NCBI RefSeq assembly: GCF_028281305.1
Contig: NZ_JANQKD010000087.1
Location: 1-64,000 of the forward strand
Origin: Pelagibius sp.
GTDB taxonomy: Bacteria; Pseudomonadota; Alphaproteobacteria; Kiloniellales; Kiloniellaceae
Reading direction: 5' to 3'
Length of the DNA stretch: 64,000 nucleotides
Made by a program: the position numbers and the translations under genes. Of the stretch, positions 25,200 to 56,010 are shown piece after piece. The notes below the pieces were generated by a model. That model did no database searches. It was not told where the DNA came from and saw only the letters and a program-made list of their open reading frames with translations. Position 1 is the stretch's first letter; each line of letters opens with the position of its first letter.

Positions 25200-25372
25200 A
25201 GGTCGGGCGGCGCCGCGGTGGCCGTTGGTAGCATGGGATCCTCTGTGGCCTGCCAAGCAGGTGGGCGCCATATACCGAGGCCAGGGCCCCGGCAGGGACA
25301 GCTCCCGAGAGGTTCGGTATTGGCCCCAGGGATCGCGAAACCTGACGCACCCCGCAGCGCCGCCCGCCAAAC
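25200..25372 (-). ncRNA. ssrS: 6S RNA candidate
   Basis: Between zapA and 5-FCL (conserved zapA-ssrS-ygfA order); 5' CGGGCGGCGCUGCGG pairs with 3' CCGCGGCGCCGCCCG (14/15 plus a G-U), leaving a long interrupted hairpin of about 170 nt. Confidence 0.72.
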
Positions 25373-44121: not shown

Positions 44122-45942
44122 TTAGGCCGCCGAGGTGTCCAGGGTCGCCGCCTCGCCGAACTGCAGGGCGGCCAGCCGGGCGTAGAGACCCCCGCCGGCC
44201 ACAAGTTCGTCGTGGCTGCCGCTTTCGACGAGCTGGCCCTGATCGATCACCAGAATGCGGTCCGCCTTCAGGACGGTGGCGAGGCGGTGGGCGATGACGA
44301 GGGTCGTGCGCTCGGTCATCAGCCGTTCGAGGGCCTGCTGCACGGCGCGCTCGCTTTCGGCGTCCAACGCGCTGGTCGCCTCGTCGAGCAGCAGCAGCGG
44401 CGGGTCCTTCAGGATGGCCCTGGCAATGGCCAGGCGCTGGCGCTGACCGCCGGAGAGACGCACGCCCTTCTCTCCGAGATAGGTGTCGAAGCCCTGGGGA
44501 AGCTGTTCGAGGAATTCCAGCGCCCCGGCAGCGGCCGCGGCGGCGCGCACCTCCGCGTCGCTGGCCTCCGGGCGGCCGTAGCGGATGTTCTCCCAGGCAT
44601 CGGCGGAAAACACCACCGGCTCCTGCGGGACCAGGCCGATGCGCGCGCGCAGATCGGCGGGATCGGCCTCCGGCAGCGCCACCCCGTCGACGCGGATGCA
44701 GCCGTTCTGCGGATCGTAAAAGCGCAGCAGAAGCTGGAACACCGTCGTCTTGCCGGCGCCCGAGGGACCGACGATGGCCACCTTCTCGCCCGGCTCGATG
44801 GTGAAGCTGAGGCCCTGCAGGGCCGAGCGGTCGGGGCGCGAGGGATAATGGAAAATCACGTGGTCGAAGCTGACGGCCCCGCGCGCCGGATGTGGCAGTG
44901 CTTTGGGCGCGGCAGGCGACGTGATTTCCGGCTCGGCGGCCAGCAGGTCCATCAGCCGCTCCGTCGCCCCGGCAGCGCGCTGCAGGTCGCCGATCACCTC
45001 GCTCACCGCACCGGCAGCCCCGGCCACGACGATGGCGTAGAAAACAAAGGCCGAAAGCTCGCCGGCGCTGATTCGCCCGCTCAGGACGTCGTGGCCGCCG
45101 ATCCAGAGGATCACGCTGACCGCGCCAAAGACCAGCACGATGACAACGGCGGTCAGCATGGCCCGCGCGGCGATGCGCCGCCGCGCGGTTCCGAAGGCTT
45201 CTTCCACCCGTGCCGAGAACCGACGCCGGTCCTCCCCCTCATGCACGAAAGCCTGTACCGTGCGGATGGCATCCAGGGTCTCGCCCGCATAGACCCCGAG
45301 ATCGGCGATGCGGTCCTGGCTGTCGCGGCTGAGACGCCGCACGCGCCGGCCGTAGGTCAGGATCGGCAGCAGCACCAGGGGGACCACCAGAAACACCAGG
45401 GCGGTCAGCCGCGCCGAGGTGATGATCAGCAGCACCGAGCCGCCTGCCAGCAGCAGGGAATTGCGGATCGCCACCGATACGGAGGAGCCGACCACGGTCT
45501 GCAGCAGCGTCGTGTCGGTGGTCAGCCGTGAGAGCACCTCTCCGGTGCGGGTGACCTCGTAGTAGGCCGGCGAGAGGGTGACGATGTGATCGAAGACCCG
45601 TTTGCGGATGTCCGCCACCACCCGTTCGCCGATCCAGGAAACCAGATAGAAGCGGACGTAGCTGGCCACCGCCAGCAAGATGACGACACCGAAGAGGACC
45701 AGGACCGCCTGGTTCAGCAGGGCGGCATTGCCGGCCGAGAACCCCTCGTCCACCAGCCGCCGCAGGCCCATCCCCAGGCCCAGCACCGTGGCCGCCGCCG
45801 TCAGCAGCGCCGCCATGGCCCCGACAAGCTGCAGCTTGTAGGGCCGCACGAACTGCCAGAGCTCGGCGAGCAGCTTCAGGCTGCCGCGGGCGGGCGCGTC
45901 ACTGCGCAGGCCGCTCGGGGCGGGAGAGGAGATTCGCATCAA
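44122..45942 (-). CDS. ABC transporter, fused permease/ATPase (MsbA-like)
   Basis: VAIVGPSGAGKTTVFQLLLRFYDP, LSGGQRQRLAIARAILKDPPLLLLDEATSALD. Confidence 0.95.
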   Translation of the reverse strand: MMRISSPAPSGLRSDAPARGSLKLLAELWQFVRPYKLQLVGAMAALLTAAATVLGLGMGLRRLVDEGFSAGNAALLNQAVLVLFGVVILLAVASYVRFYLVSWIGERVVADIRKRVFDHIVTLSPAYYEVTRTGEVLSRLTTDTTLLQTVVGSSVSVAIRNSLLLAGGSVLLIITSARLTALVFLVVPLVLLPILTYGRRVRRLSRDSQDRIADLGVYAGETLDAIRTVQAFVHEGEDRRRFSARVEEAFGTARRRIAARAMLTAVVIVLVFGAVSVILWIGGHDVLSGRISAGELSAFVFYAIVVAGAAGAVSEVIGDLQRAAGATERLMDLLAAEPEITSPAAPKALPHPARGAVSFDHVIFHYPSRPDRSALQGLSFTIEPGEKVAIVGPSGAGKTTVFQLLLRFYDPQNGCIRVDGVALPEADPADLRARIGLVPQEPVVFSADAWENIRYGRPEASDAEVRAAAAAAGALEFLEQLPQGFDTYLGEKGVRLSGGQRQRLAIARAILKDPPLLLLDEATSALDAESERAVQQALERLMTERTTLVIAHRLATVLKADRILVIDQGQLVESGSHDELVAGGGLYARLAALQFGEAATLDTSAA

Positions 45943-45943
45943 C

Positions 45944-45996
45944 CGGGCTCTTCCATGTAACCGGGCTTCTCATGACCGGGCTTCTTATGACCGGGC
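45944..45996. repeat. 15-bp tandem repeat CCGGGCTTCTCATGA
   Basis: ccgggctcttccatgtaa / ccgggcttctcatga / ccgggcttcttatga / ccgggcatcccag. Confidence 0.7.
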
Positions 45997-46326
45997 ATCC
46001 CAGCCGGGCGGGCCGCGCCGGGCAGCCGATCGGCAGGGACCTTTACCTGGGCCCGATCCTCCCTGACGCCTAGGACAAAATCCAGCAAATACGGGGCTCC
46101 CGGCCCGGTCTGCGGCCTTTCGTCCGCCCGCGGGCCGGAAATAGCCGCCCCCGCGCGGCCGCCGCTTCCTGACCGCCGCGAGGCAAATGAGAACAACACC
46201 ATGAAATCGCTAGATTTATTGGCGCTTGCAGGGCCGGAACAAGCGGCGGCCCGTCACCCTCGGACGGGGTTGCGTCCGGGCCCGCACTCGGGTATATACC
46301 GCCGCGCTTTATCGAGGATCATGGCC

Positions 46327-46551
46327 ATGAAAAAAGACCTGCACCCGGAGTACCACGAGATCACCGTGGTGATGACCGACGGCACCGAGTTCAAGACCCG
46401 CTCCACCTATGGGGCCGCGGGCGACACCATGCGCCTGGATATCGACCCCAAGACCCACCCCGCCTGGACCGGCGAGCACCGCCTGGTCGACAGTGGCGGC
46501 CAGGTGGCCAAGTTCAACAAGCGCTTCGGCGGTTTCGGCCTGAAGTCGTAA
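46327..46551 (+). CDS. rpmE: 50S ribosomal protein L31
   Basis: [49 protein letters not shown]. Confidence 0.96.
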
Positions 46552-46611
46552 GGATCCCGGCGCCGCCGGTGGAGCGAGGCTCCCGGCGGTTATACCGAAG
46601 GTCCGATAGCA

Positions 46612-46637
46612 GGGCGGCCGTTGCGCCGCCCTTTTTG
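46612..46637 (+). terminator. Rho-independent terminator downstream of rpmE
   Basis: gggcggc-cgttgc-gccgccc followed by ttttt. Confidence 0.85.
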
Positions 46638-46682
46638 TCTGAAACCCCTTTATCCGCGAGAGACCCTGGAGAACCGGGACGG

Positions 46683-47105
46683 CTATCCCTGCAGGCTGGG
46701 CCGGCTCGGGCGGTCCTGCATGGCATCGAGGCGGGCCACGCGCTGATAGAGCTTGTGGGAGCGCTCGAGAAGATCCAGCAGGCGCGGCTGAAGCTGCGCT
46801 CCTTCGACCGGCGGTGCCGTCTCCTCGCAGACCTCCTTACCGGACAGGCGGTACTCTTCCGCGGCGGCCTCCTCGCGGGTCATTTCGCCCGCATGCACCG
46901 CTTTCTGGACCAGGAGCCAGGCCATAATCTGGGTCAGCCGTGCGGTCAGCCGCATGGTCTCGCAGCTCATCGCCATGCGTTCGGCCGGCGACATCTTCTT
47001 GCGCTCTTCGGGCTCGCGATGGGTCAGATAGTCCCGCGCTTCGCGGGTCAGCGCCAAGGCCTCGTCGAAGGTCGAATCAAAGAAGGCAACGGTCTGGTCC
47101 TTCAA
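46683..47105 (-). CDS. DUF1465 family protein
   Basis: FFDSTFDEALALTREARDYLTHREPEERKKMSPAERMAMSCETMRLTARLTQIMAWLLVQKAVHAGEMT. Confidence 0.82.
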   Translation of the reverse strand: MKDQTVAFFDSTFDEALALTREARDYLTHREPEERKKMSPAERMAMSCETMRLTARLTQIMAWLLVQKAVHAGEMTREEAAAEEYRLSGKEVCEETAPPVEGAQLQPRLLDLLERSHKLYQRVARLDAMQDRPSRPSLQG

Positions 47106-47410
47106 GACGGATTCCTCAAGACGGGCTCCTGGGCAGGACGGCCTGTTGCGAGCGGCCCCCGGCTGGCGGGCCCGGGATCGCTGAACGGCGAAAAACGTCC
47201 GATGCTAACCCCTTCCGGCTTAACAATCCCTTGGAAATGAACGCCGCAGAGATCAGGAATTATTTCATATCCAGCAGAGACCGCAAGCCTTGAATCGGAA
47301 CCGCCAGCTTCCAATATCCAAGGGGCCGCAGAGGGGTGCCTTCTAAAAGGGCCTCTCAGAACGGCGGCTTATGACGAGGGTCCGACCATCCGGTGGGCCC
47401 GTTGACCAAC

Positions 47411-47439
47411 CATATTGCTCATGCAAGGAGAATGTGGAC
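47411..47439 (+). promoter_or_regulatory. ROSE-type RNA thermometer hairpin upstream of hsp20
   Basis: CCAUAUUGCU-CAUGCA-AGGAGAAUGUGG: UUGCU (47415-47419) opposite SD AGGAG (47426-47430) with the ROSE-type G-G mismatch, 9 nt before the ATG. Confidence 0.72.
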
Positions 47440-47901
47440 ATGCGCAGTCTTGATCTTTCCCCCCTTTTCCGTGCCACCGTCGGTTTCGACCGTCTCGCCT
47501 CCGCGCTCGACGCCGCCAGCCGGCTGGACGACAGCGCCTACAGCTACCCGCCCTACAACATCGAGAAGACCGGTGACGACAGCTACCGGATCGTGATGGC
47601 GGTGGCAGGCTTCGGCGAAGACGAATTGGACGTCACGGCAAAGGAGAACAGCCTGACCATCACCGGCAAGAAGGCCGCTGAGGGCGAAGAGCCCAAGTAC
47701 CTCCACCGCGGTATCGCCGCGCGCGCCTTTGAGCGCCGCTTCGACCTCGCCGACTACATCAAGGTGAGCGGTGCCAAGCTGGAGAACGGCCTGCTGTCGG
47801 TCGACCTGGTCCGCGAGATTCCCGAGGCCAAGAAGCCCCGCTCCATCAAGATCACTTCCGGCGTCGGCAGCGCCAAGGTGATCGAGAGCGAAGCGGCCTG
47901 A
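47440..47901 (+). CDS. Hsp20 family small heat-shock protein
   Basis: MRSLDLSPLFRATVGFDRLASALDAASR...YPPYNIEKTGDDSYRIVMAVAGFGEDELDVTAKENSLTITGKK...YLHRGIAARAFERRFDLADYI. Confidence 0.96.
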   Translation: MRSLDLSPLFRATVGFDRLASALDAASRLDDSAYSYPPYNIEKTGDDSYRIVMAVAGFGEDELDVTAKENSLTITGKKAAEGEEPKYLHRGIAARAFERRFDLADYIKVSGAKLENGLLSVDLVREIPEAKKPRSIKITSGVGSAKVIESEAA

Positions 47902-50010: not shown

Positions 50011-51306
50011 TCAGACTTTCTGGGATACACGGAGCGCCTGGCGCAGATCACCGATGATGTCGTCCGGGTCCTCCAGGCCGACGGAGAGGCGCACCATGTC
50101 CTCGCCGACGCCTGCGGCGGCCAGCTGCTCCGCGCTCATCTGCTGATGGGTGGTGCTGGCCGGATGGATCACCAGGGTCTTGGCGTCGCCCACGTTGGCG
50201 AGGTGGGAGGAGAGCTGGCAGGCCTCGATGAACTTCGCCCCAGCCTGGCGGCCGCCCTTCACGCCGAAGGAAACGATGGAGCCGCAGCCGCGGGGCATCA
50301 GCTTCTGGCCGAGGGCGTGGTCGGGATGGTCCGGCAGGTCCGGGTGGATGACCCAGGAGACGGCATCCTCGCGCTGCAGCGCCTCCAGCACCTTATGGGT
50401 GTTGGCCATGTGACGTTCCATGCGCAAGGGGAGAGTCTCCACACCCTGAAGAATGTAAAAAGCGTTCTGTGGGCTCATCGTGGCGCCGAAATCGCGCAAG
50501 CCCTCCGCCCGCGCCCGCATGGCAAAGGCCTGGGGGCCGAACTCCTCGGCGAAGTCGATGCCGTGATAGCCCGCGTAGGGCTCGGTCAGGGTGTCGAAGC
50601 GGCCGCTGGCCTCCCAGTCGAAACGCCCGCCGTCGACCAGCAGCCCGCCCAGGGCCAGGCCGTGACCGCCGAGCCACTTGGTGGCGGAGTGCATGACCAG
50701 ATCGGCGCCCAGTTCCACGGGGCGGCAGAGGTAAGGCGTGGCGAAGGTGCTGTCGATCATCAGCGGCAGGCCGGCGTCGTGCGCCACCTCTGCCACCGCG
50801 GGGATGTCCAGCACCTCCAGGCCCGGATTGCCCAGACCCTCGGCGAAGACCAGCCGGGTTTCCGGGCGAATGGCATCGCGGAAGGCGGCGACGTCGCGCG
50901 GATTGACGAAGCTGGTGGTGATGCCGAAGCGCGGCAGGGTGTGGGTGAAGAGGTTGATGGAGCCGCCGTAGAGCGATGCCGAGGCGACGATATGCCCGCC
51001 CTGGCCCATCAGGGTGGCGACCGCCAGATGCAGGGCGGCTTGGCCGGAGGCGGTGGCAATGGCGGCCACCCCCAGTTCCAGCGCGGCAACCCGTTCCTCC
51101 AGCACCGCGACGGTGGGGTTGGAGATGCGGCTGTAGATATGGCCGGCGCGCTCCAGATTGAACAGCGCTGCCGCCTGGTCGGTGTCCCGGAAGACGTAAG
51201 AGGTGGTCTGGTAGATCGGCACCGCCCGTGCGCCGGTCACCGGGTCGGGCTGCTGACCGGCGTGCAGGGAGAGGGTGTCGAACTTGAGGAACTTTGGATC
51301 TGCCAC
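50011..51306 (-). CDS. O-acetylhomoserine aminocarboxypropyltransferase (Cys/Met metabolism PLP enzyme)
   Basis: FDTLSLHAGQQPDPVTGARAVPIYQTTSYVFRDTDQAAALFNLERAGHIYSRISNPT..., LVMHSATKWLGGHG. Confidence 0.93.
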   Translation of the reverse strand: MADPKFLKFDTLSLHAGQQPDPVTGARAVPIYQTTSYVFRDTDQAAALFNLERAGHIYSRISNPTVAVLEERVAALELGVAAIATASGQAALHLAVATLMGQGGHIVASASLYGGSINLFTHTLPRFGITTSFVNPRDVAAFRDAIRPETRLVFAEGLGNPGLEVLDIPAVAEVAHDAGLPLMIDSTFATPYLCRPVELGADLVMHSATKWLGGHGLALGGLLVDGGRFDWEASGRFDTLTEPYAGYHGIDFAEEFGPQAFAMRARAEGLRDFGATMSPQNAFYILQGVETLPLRMERHMANTHKVLEALQREDAVSWVIHPDLPDHPDHALGQKLMPRGCGSIVSFGVKGGRQAGAKFIEACQLSSHLANVGDAKTLVIHPASTTHQQMSAEQLAAAGVGEDMVRLSVGLEDPDDIIGDLRQALRVSQKV

Positions 51307-51887
51307 GGTGAGGGACTCCGGTTATGCGCCCGCAACCTTATACCAAGCCGCGGCGATCCTGACCCCCTCTTGCGCCGCATGCGGAAGCGCAAGGGGCACC
51401 CTGCGGCAGTGCAAAAGAACAGACGCGCGAAACACCGTCGATATAACGGTTCGCGCGCCTTTCTCCGCAAGCAGCGGAGCGGCTTCATCTGCAGCGCTGG
51501 AAGTAAAAAAAGCAGGGCCCAAAATTGAAGGAGGGCCTTCGATCCGGATGGATCGTGGCCCCTCCCCTTGTTTACGTTCTACCCTGTCAACTTGCCGTCC
51601 CGAACACTACCAATGTCCTGCCGACGGTCAAGCGGAGAATCATTAACGTCTTGAACGCGGGGGCTTTCCTTGGAGTCCTGCGCGCTTGAAGTGCCGCCGA
51701 CTGCAAGAACCGTTGCCGCAATCTGCAACGCGGTCCGGTAAGCGGGCCCACCACCATCGCGGAGCGCCGACAGCGCTCCACTGTCGCCATGCATGAATCA
51801 CAATCATAAGAAGAGACGCACTGCCGACTTGCAGCTTCGGTGTCGTAGGATGCTCTCGTACAGACCGCCAAGACGGCACGCGGCGCA

Positions 51888-52050
51888 GAAAGAAAAACCG
51901 CCGGGCGAACCCGGCGGCAAGTTTAACAGGGAGGCGTTACAAGGAACGGATAAACATCCGAAAGACGACCCGGGAGGACCCGGGGAGGGTGCCAGGCCGT
52001 CTATGGTTCAAATTAGCCTCGAATTCCTAAAGAATAGTTAAGACTCTGGT
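51888..52050 (-). ncRNA. Orphan sRNA candidate with anti-Shine-Dalgarno motifs and Rho-independent terminator
   Basis: Minus strand contains CACCCUCCCC, GUCCUCCCGG and GCCUCCCUG, hairpin CGGAU-GUUU-AUCCG, and terminator CCGCCGGG-UUCG-CCCGGCGG-UUUUU (51898-51917); no minus-strand ORF supports it. 5' end is a guess. Confidence 0.6.
51893..51917 (-). terminator. Rho-independent terminator
   Basis: Perfect 8-bp stem CCGCCGGG/CCCGGCGG with UUCG loop and U5 tract on the minus strand. Confidence 0.85.
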
Positions 52051-52246
52051 TAAAACTTTCTGTATGACCGAGATCGGAACCGGGAAAAACGGCGGAAATC
52101 CGCGGATCTTCCATTTGGAGCTCGATCCCGGGAAAGCGGCGCCCACATCTTTTTTGGTTAAGAAGCGCGGCTTTCACCCGCGAACCCAGCCGCCCGCCGG
52201 GCGGCATAAGCCATCGAACAGCGGAACGAACGGAGGCGAAACCATC

Positions 52247-52651
52247 ATGACAACGCGGCGCAGGTTCCTGATCTCCAGCAGCCTTGTCTTGTCGGCGGGC
52301 GTTCTCGTTACGGGGCTAGCCGCAGGGCTCGGCACCCGGCCGGCGCGCGCGCACCACGGCTGGCGCTGGACCGAGGACGGCAACTTCGAGCTTACGGGCC
52401 TGATCCAGACGGTGCGTCTGGGCAATCCGCACGGGCTTCTCACCGTCGATGCCGACGGCGAGATCTGGACCGTCGAGGTCGGACAGCCCTGGCGCAACGA
52501 GCGGGCGGGCCTCACCGACGACATGCTGACCCCGGGGACGGAGATCAAGGCCATCGGGCAGCGCGCCGCCGATGAGGCCGACAAGCGGGTCAAGGCGGAG
52601 CGCGTCAGCATCAAAGGTCAGCTCTACAACCTTTACCCGAACCGGGACTGA
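52247..52651 (+). CDS. Tat-exported DUF6152-like protein
   Basis: MTTRRRFLISSSLVLSAGVLVTGLAAGLGTRPARAHHGWRWTEDGNFELTGLIQTVRLGNPHGLLTVDADGEIWTVEVGQPWRNERAGL. Confidence 0.8.
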   Translation: MTTRRRFLISSSLVLSAGVLVTGLAAGLGTRPARAHHGWRWTEDGNFELTGLIQTVRLGNPHGLLTVDADGEIWTVEVGQPWRNERAGLTDDMLTPGTEIKAIGQRAADEADKRVKAERVSIKGQLYNLYPNRD

Positions 52652-55008: not shown

Positions 55009-55072
55009 GCAGGCCGGCCAACCCCCCTCAGGACCCTTGCGGCGAATCGCGTTTTTGTCACAGGCTTGCGGG

Positions 55073-55259
55073 CGATGGTTCCGCCAGGCCGAACGCACGG
55101 CGGATGAAAAGGGAACACGGTGAGGCGTACCCATCAGGGACCGAGACCGTGGCTGCCCCCGCAACTGTAAGCGGCGAGCGATACCCGAAGCGCCACTGGC
55201 CCGCTAAAGGCCGGGAAGGCGGGTAGAGCGTCAAGCCGCAAGCCAGGAGACCTGCCATC
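55073..55259 (+). ncRNA. Cobalamin riboswitch
   Basis: GGGAACACGGTGAGG...CGTGGCTGCCCCCGCAACTGTAAGCGG...CCACTGG...GGGAAGGCG...AAGCCGCAAGCCAGGAGACCTGCC. Confidence 0.96.
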
Positions 55260-55326
55260 ACCAAGCCGGCGCTACGGGCGCCTCGAACCAACGACTCCGC
55301 ACGGTGGGTGCGGATGGGGGAAAACC

Positions 55327-56010
55327 ATGCATATCGAACTGGGCATCGTCGACGGTGCCAAAATCGTTCTCAGCTACGCAACCGCGGCAGCGGCCTTTGG
55401 CTTGGCCGGCAAACTCGCGGTGGACACGATCCGCCGCGACGGCGGCATCAGCGCGCTCACCCTGCGCAGCGTCGTCACCACCGCCTTGGTGTTCTGCTTC
55501 TTCGAGGTCCTGCCGCACTATCCCGTCGGGGTGTCCGAGGTCCACTTCATACTCGGATCGACGCTCTACCTGATCTTCGGCGCCGGCCCGGCGGCCATAG
55601 GGCTGGCCGGGGGCCTGCTGCTTCAGGGACTGCTCTTTGCGCCCGCCGACCTGCCGCAGTACTTCATCAACGTTACCACGCTGATCGTGCCGCTCTGGGC
55701 CATCAGCCTGTTGGCCAAGCGCATCATCCCGGCCGACACACCTTACGTCGAGGTAAAGTACTGGCAGGCGTTGGCGCTCTCCACCGCCTACCAGGGCGGC
55801 ATCGTCGCCTGGGTTGCCTTTTGGGCCTTCTATGGGCAGGGCTTCGCGGCGGCCAACGTCGCAGCGGTGACCTCCTTCGGCGGCGCCTACATGCTGGTGA
55901 TCATTCTTGAGCCGCTGGCCGATCTGGCGGTGCTGGCTGCGGCGAAGGCGCTGGCTCCGCTCAGCCGGAGCGGCCTGCTCTACAACCGCCTGCATCACCC
56001 GGCGACCTGA
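55327..56010 (+). CDS. CbiM-like energy-coupling-factor transporter permease
   Basis: MHIELGIVDGAKI N-terminus with His2; multi-TM; directly downstream of the cobalamin riboswitch. Confidence 0.82.
   Translation: MHIELGIVDGAKIVLSYATAAAAFGLAGKLAVDTIRRDGGISALTLRSVVTTALVFCFFEVLPHYPVGVSEVHFILGSTLYLIFGAGPAAIGLAGGLLLQGLLFAPADLPQYFINVTTLIVPLWAISLLAKRIIPADTPYVEVKYWQALALSTAYQGGIVAWVAFWAFYGQGFAAANVAAVTSFGGAYMLVIILEPLADLAVLAAAKALAPLSRSGLLYNRLHHPAT

Follow-up and report, generated by a model that had tools for sequence, protein, structure and literature searches.

Question and setting

What is transcribed, and for what purpose, upstream of metY on the minus strand of a Pelagibius sp. contig, where a terminator is found without a gene to terminate? 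The window, meaning the whole stretch of 64,000 nucleotides that was analysed (contig NZ_JANQKD010000087.1; source genome of 4.97 Mb), contains a minus-strand stem at 51918-51897 that was located by scan (GCCGCCGGG-UUCG-CCCGGCGGU, then the U-run UUUUCUUUC), in agreement with the preliminary description of this DNA. The nearest downstream minus-strand gene is metY, which starts at 51306. The three anti-Shine-Dalgarno (anti-SD) stretches and the small hairpin CGGAU-GUUU-AUCCG that the same description had placed on this strand are all present, the former as CACCCUCCCC (51991-51982), UCCUCCC (51978-51972) and GCCUCCC (51935-51929). Three copies of CTCCC fall within 70 nt of each other at no more than three sites on the window's minus strand, and at none on its plus strand.

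Among congeners, two conserved islands (52046-51887 and 51646-51507) stand in sequence that is unconserved between and around them. The first contains the terminator and is termed RNA1 here; from 52006 to 51887 its identity to six congeners is 0.77-1.00, versus about 0.1-0.5 outside. The locus is carried by relatives at the genus and family level, Pelagibius litoralis, P. marinus, Denitrobaculum, and Tistlia among them, and RNA1 homologues were found throughout the order. The second island, RNA2, which the preliminary description does not mention, lies ~300 bases beyond RNA1 on the same strand, with a predicted start at about 51599 (Table 1). The label of orphan first given to RNA1 is thus not supported, since a conserved antisense partner adjoins it and a sibling sRNA is encoded elsewhere in the genome. 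Because the first 16 bases of RNA2 mirror the active site of RNA1, a regulator and its antagonist are the most likely reading of the pair: RNA1 is probably a stand-alone anti-SD sRNA, and RNA2 a linked sponge for RNA1 and for the AbcR-like sibling.

Table 1. Coordinates of the features discussed, in window positions, with the evidence for each.
Feature	Position	Strand	Evidence
RNA1, ~115-nt small RNA	51890..52004	-	covariance model 108 bits; conservation island; fold z -4.4
CtrA-like box TTAACTATTCTTTAG in RNA1 promoter	52027..52041	-	TTAA-N7-TTAA with one mismatch
Probable -10 of RNA1, TAATTT	52010..52015	-	sequence; TANNNT-like hexamer at similar distance in relatives
RNA1 5' hairpin; encloses first anti-SD stretch, flanks second	51962..52001	-	consensus outer stem
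RNA1 second hairpin, CGGAU-GUUU-AUCCG	51947..51960	-	paired in 95% of cells, 25 sequences
RNA1 active core GCCUCCCUGUUAAACUUGCC, anti-SD; predicted to pair with RNA2	51916..51935	-	
RNA1 intrinsic terminator and U-run	51890..51918	-	scan; stem intact in 25/25 sequences
RNA2, undescribed small RNA, ~80-93 nt	51507..51599	-	island 51646-51507; model R2 85 bits; no Rfam match
RNA2 sigma70-type promoter, CTTGACC-N16-TAGTGT	51604..51632	-	TTGAC...TANNNT conserved upstream in relatives
RNA2 5' pairing segment CGGCAAGUUGACAGGG, antisense to RNA1 core	51582..51597	-	
RNA2 terminator-type hairpin	51530..51567	-	compensatory changes at 4/13 pairs
metY, O-acetylhomoserine aminocarboxypropyltransferase; first gene 3' of RNA2	50011..51306	-	NCBIfam NF006004, 776 bits (cut-off 636)
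DUF1465 (RcdA-like) gene; synteny anchor common to BjrC1505 loci	about 46683..47105	-	Pfam PF07323, E 2e-35

Structure, conservation and promoter of RNA1

The minus strand between 51890 and 52025 folds at -54.3 kcal/mol (z = -4.4), and none of 200 shuffled sequences was equally stable. The plus strand of the same stretch is also stable (z -3.4), as expected because of the inverted repeats, and the minus strand is favoured because of the promoters and the U-run of the terminator. The primary sequence of the 5' hairpin is not conserved, yet all five pairs of its outer stem show compensatory changes among 25 sequences, which is the covariance across relatives that had been proposed as a check. 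The sequence UUCCUUGU-A-GCCUCCCUGU, which includes the GCCUCCC of the core, is almost invariant across the order. Of the three anti-SD loops initially proposed, this third one alone is general, and it is not a hairpin loop but single-stranded, the core being largely unpaired except for a weak local helix. The other two are features of the genus and show no conservation beyond it. Loss of the terminator and of the CCUCC motif in relatives would have spoken against a regulatory RNA, and both are conserved. Order-wide conservation, a covarying stem and an invariant CCUCCC core together lend good support to the original suggestion of a trans-acting anti-SD sRNA that is a divergent member of a known family.

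The AT-rich stretch that had been suspected to be a promoter holds two predicted elements. These are TTAACTATTCTTTAG, at 52041-52027, and a TAATTT (52015-52010) from whose position the 5' end of RNA1 was placed. The first element resembles TTAA-N7-TTAA, the recognition pattern of CtrA known from Caulobacter. When the 90 nt upstream of 46 RNA1/BjrC1505 loci were searched with at most one mismatch allowed, 41 carried such a box, versus 6.2 expected from shuffles, and most boxes lay 87-109 nt 5' of the RNA1 core. The promoter of RNA1 thus carries a CtrA-like box of the kind that marks a CtrA regulon, which suggests CtrA control.

Assignment of RNA1 to a family

An Rfam search of the window RNA1 returned no family at its cut-off, so that the covariance check proposed for the locus gave only sub-threshold matches, among them one to BjrC1505 (RF02356; 25.7 bits, gathering cut-off 50). 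RNA1 of close relatives scores 30-37 bits against the same model, with full-length alignment in many. The best four sub-threshold matches are all alphaproteobacterial sRNAs that share a CUCCCU-ACUU module. Three families were rejected as identities of RNA1: alpha-R8/mmgR (24.6 bits, cut-off 41), because true copies above the cut-off (RF00519; 56.7 and 52.0 bits) are located elsewhere in the genome, at C91:62249-62343 and C92:3902-3971; SorY (RF02651; 27.8 bits, gathering 111); and SorX (RF02784; 21.8 bits, gathering 46.6). In a class-wide scan, BjrC1505 members above the cut-off (51-73 bits) were found directly 5' of RNA2 in families f48, f9, f74, and f120. The genomes with an above-cut-off BjrC1505, the same core and RNA2 downstream are G206 (73 bits), G080 (68), G302 (65), G041 (57), G395 (54), and G152 (52). 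The DUF1465 family, to which RcdA belongs, the Caulobacter protein that regulates the degradation of CtrA, was matched (PF07323) in the window and in six scanned family loci. Its gene lies directly downstream at several BjrC1505/RNA1-type loci, including several BjrC1505 loci without RNA2; in the window, metY and other genes intervene, those between metY and DUF1465 being an alpha/beta hydrolase, a thioesterase-like gene and hsp20. RNA1 is therefore treated as a divergent member of BjrC1505 although its own score falls below the cut-off, because above-cut-off members share its arrangement and core and because the RcdA-like synteny agrees; homology through relatives and synteny thereby strengthen the divergent-family suggestion.

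RNA1 has the ACGCCUCCCUGUU core, the terminator and the DUF1465 neighbourhood in common with BjrC1505, but the sequence of its 5' hairpin diverges and it has a linked RNA2, which is seemingly absent from Bradyrhizobium-like members: at the Bradyrhizobium-like and several other BjrC1505 loci examined, no clear RNA2 was found. With alpha-R8/MmgR (RF00519 suhB) it shares the succession of CUCCCU core, ACUU and terminator, whereas the flanks of the core differ. SorY and SorX of Rhodobacter resemble it in a CUCCCUGUUGGACUU-type core that adjoins the terminator. AbcR1 and AbcR2 of Sinorhizobium, anti-SD sRNAs of the Hfq type, repress the mRNAs of ABC transporters, using CUCCUCCC and UUCCCCUC in S. 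meliloti (PMC8844928); RNA1 differs from them in locus, promoter and 5' part. As separate observations, two BjrC1505-like copies of RNA1 lie in tandem ~200 nt apart, 5' of an RcdA-like gene, in family f111 (loci L117 and L118), and a BjrC1505 locus elsewhere (L197) is followed by an RcdA-like gene and an ABC exporter similar to that of the window.

RNA2, a second small RNA, and its relation to metY

Searches of Rfam with the window stretch 51500-52260 (E up to 10) and with the loci of 20 relatives (E up to 0.3) gave no match to RNA2, and a known riboswitch or another Rfam family was rejected on this basis. All 27 aligned members of the order have GGCAAGUU and ACAGG unchanged at the 5' end of RNA2, with a spacer that varies, and the exact copy of CGGCAAGUUGACAGGG occurs once in the genome. 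The covariation of the RNA2 hairpin (Table 1) comes from a subset alignment; the first alignment misplaced the hairpin arms and gave no consensus structure. U-rich tracts follow the hairpin at ~51526-51520 and 51512-51506, the first of which is weak in the genus of the window, where RNA2 may end at either of the two.

The main rival to a free-standing RNA2, in our judgement an unlikely one, treats RNA2 as the metY 5' leader with an attenuator hairpin, to which RNA1 binds so as to repress or attenuate metY, as in an ordinary pair of neighbouring sRNA and mRNA. Such a role would fit the usual neighbourhood, in which metY directly follows RNA2 (f48, f9, and f129 as well as most Kiloniellales), and the position of the RNA2 promoter as the nearest conserved promoter 5' of metY in the window; yet the gap from RNA2 to metY (51506-51307) is unconserved among congeners, and the hairpin is followed by strong U-runs in most relatives, closing RNA2 as a terminator would. 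RNA2 is moreover retained without an adjacent metY in Kiloniella, in the prpE locus of f23 and in the rcdA-adjacent locus of f120, and its 16-nt pairing segment is at the extreme 5' end, distant from the metY start codon.

Linkage and complementarity of RNA1 and RNA2

About 10 other families also have RNA1 and RNA2 in tandem. Separate covariance-model scans for each RNA recovered both in tandem, on one strand and within ~250 nt, in the unrelated families f44, f47, and f48; more tandem pairs were found in f129, f23, f9, f74, and f120, and in f64 with a spacing of 1.1 kb. Two genomes (G032 and G213) carry RNA2 without an adjacent RNA1. Across 25 loci the predicted RNA1:RNA2 duplex reaches -24 to -47 kcal/mol, and in 11 genomes the mean for shuffled RNA2 is -15 to -19 kcal/mol; the values for the window are -32.7 kcal/mol versus a shuffled mean of -18.5. 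In the genus of the window the pairing is broken by a 1-nt bulge and holds a mid-table rank relative to other RNA2s. The paired segments co-vary between families, reading GUCUAACUUG in RNA1 and CAAGUUAGAC in RNA2 of f44, GUUGAACUCG and CGAGUUCAC in f9, and UUAAACUUUC and GAAGGUUUAA in f120.

Cognate duplexes were stronger than non-cognate ones (permutation p = 4e-5, one per family, n = 10) in a comparison that is biased by four distant RNA2s having been chosen by complementarity. Because those four had been located in this way, the test was repeated on loci found by covariance model only, where the exact p was 0.0018 (n = 7) and rose to 0.0125 once f23 was left out (n = 6); a test of this kind removes shared ancestry only partly. 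By predicted pairing, RNA2 is thus complementary over an extended stretch to the active site of at least one sRNA, as a sponge would be.

An AbcR-like sibling as a further partner

The genome encodes a sibling sRNA (C126:5242-5347) with the core GCCUCCCUGUUCAACUUGCC, located after a LysR-type gene and in this respect resembling AbcR beside lsrB (PMC8844928). Its predicted duplex with RNA2 (-35.8 kcal/mol) is at least as strong as that of RNA1, and RNA2 with a true alpha-R8 copy reaches only -20.0 kcal/mol. Over 11 genomes, the sibling:RNA2 duplex is equal to or stronger than the RNA1:RNA2 duplex in nine. RNA1 may therefore not be the main partner of RNA2, because the sibling fits equally well and because RNA2 occurs without RNA1 in two genomes. 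Taken further, RNA2 could chiefly sponge the LysR-adjacent AbcR-like sRNA while RNA1, sharing the core, acts as a decoy that titrates RNA2. We regard this as quite unlikely: the genetic linkage of RNA2 is to RNA1 and not to the sibling, and RNA1 has a conserved promoter box of its own, even though the duplex strengths and the two genomes named above would suit a decoy. Individual families point both ways, the sibling core of f47 (CCCUGUUCAACUCGC) being the exact complement of f47 RNA2, and f44 RNA2 matching RNA1 in full but the sibling with one G-U.

The sibling pairing, the poor pairing with alpha-R8 and the two genomes that lack an adjacent RNA1 together fit a predicted role of RNA2 as antagonist to all sRNAs of the BjrC1505/AbcR type, with its gene beside that of one of them. 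A precedent for such a mode of action is CrfA of Caulobacter, a sponge of the alpha-R8 siblings SisA-D that pairs with their CCUCCCU core through a stem loop rich in G and A, in which residues G49-C63 are protected (PMC12559287). By analogy, RNA2 is also predicted to pair with the anti-SD cores of a group of sibling sRNAs, but it would do so with its 5' end and on BjrC1505/AbcR-type cores, it adjoins the gene of one target, and it pairs poorly with the alpha-R8 copy present here; CrfA may thus serve as a working precedent in mode, though not in the site of pairing, the group of targets or the linkage. In f48, two loci (L131 and L132) hold arrays of about three tandem CCUCCCUG sRNAs with terminators, the L131 array after a LysR-type gene, which suggests a local expansion of AbcR-like siblings.

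Proposed mechanism and significance

The sequences show two conserved units whose structures covary, which are linked in many families and whose complementarity is strong and co-varies. In the regulator-and-sponge reading, RNA1 would be transcribed alone from the promoter with the CtrA-like box. Its core GCCUCCCUGUUAAACUUGCC, immediately 5' of the terminator, would pair with SD regions such as AACAGGGAGG and so block translation of its targets, probably on Hfq. RNA2 would be made separately from its own sigma70-type promoter, and its 5' end would bind the core of RNA1 and, equally well, that of the AbcR-like sibling. When made, RNA2 would remove these repressors, the presumed direction being that RNA2 inhibits RNA1.

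The C/U core, the terminator with its U-run and the candidate SD sites are sequence features in keeping with a putative Hfq-type anti-SD repressor, the best reading of RNA1. In a target search limited to exact sites, ACAGGGAGG-N-ATG gave four candidates versus none for the reversed control. They include an exact ACAGGGAGG 5 nt 5' of the start codon (ATG) of a gene for an ABC substrate-binding protein and a site at a urease alpha-type gene, both names being taken from reading of the sequence. A view of RNA1 as a plain anti-SD sRNA whose complementarity to RNA2 is mere SD mimicry without physiological pairing is very improbable: a C/U-rich core, an ACAGGG in RNA2 that any SD-like site could match, and the bulge in the genus of the window would allow it, but the pairing reaches far past the SD on the GGCAAGUU side, co-varies between families, and involves a segment whose exact copy is single in the genome and 300 nt from RNA1.

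A broader proposal, to which we give slightly better than even chances, is that the locus represents an ancient alphaproteobacterial two-RNA cassette, consisting of a BjrC1505-type sRNA with a CtrA-like promoter and a dedicated, co-evolving antisense sponge, that links a cell-cycle-type promoter to nutrient-uptake genes. If so, the sponge would co-evolve with the core of RNA1 and with those of the AbcR-like siblings. Sponge RNAs are usually discovered singly in model species, through sequencing of the RNA interactome; here, a linked pair of sRNA and putative sponge was seen from sequence alone in many alphaproteobacterial families, with compensatory intermolecular changes. The proposal offers a candidate function for BjrC1505, a family that the open-access literature searched mentions only once and in passing, together with predicted cross-talk with AbcR-type sRNAs and an sRNA promoter suggested to answer to the cell-cycle regulator CtrA. 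The pair could be tested in the culturable Pelagibius litoralis, Tistlia consotensis, and Kiloniella.

Other features of the window

A search of plasmid records with the window locus gave no match. The DUF1465 (RcdA-like) gene of the window forms a cluster with hsp20 and an ABC exporter (44122-47901). Two further structured RNAs were recognised in the window: a 6S RNA (RF00013) on the minus strand at 25206-25363 (68.7 bits, exceeding the cut-off), and a cobalamin riboswitch (RF00174) on the plus strand at 55059-55273 (118.6 bits), located 5' of an open reading frame (55327-56010) that reads as a CbiM-type permease.
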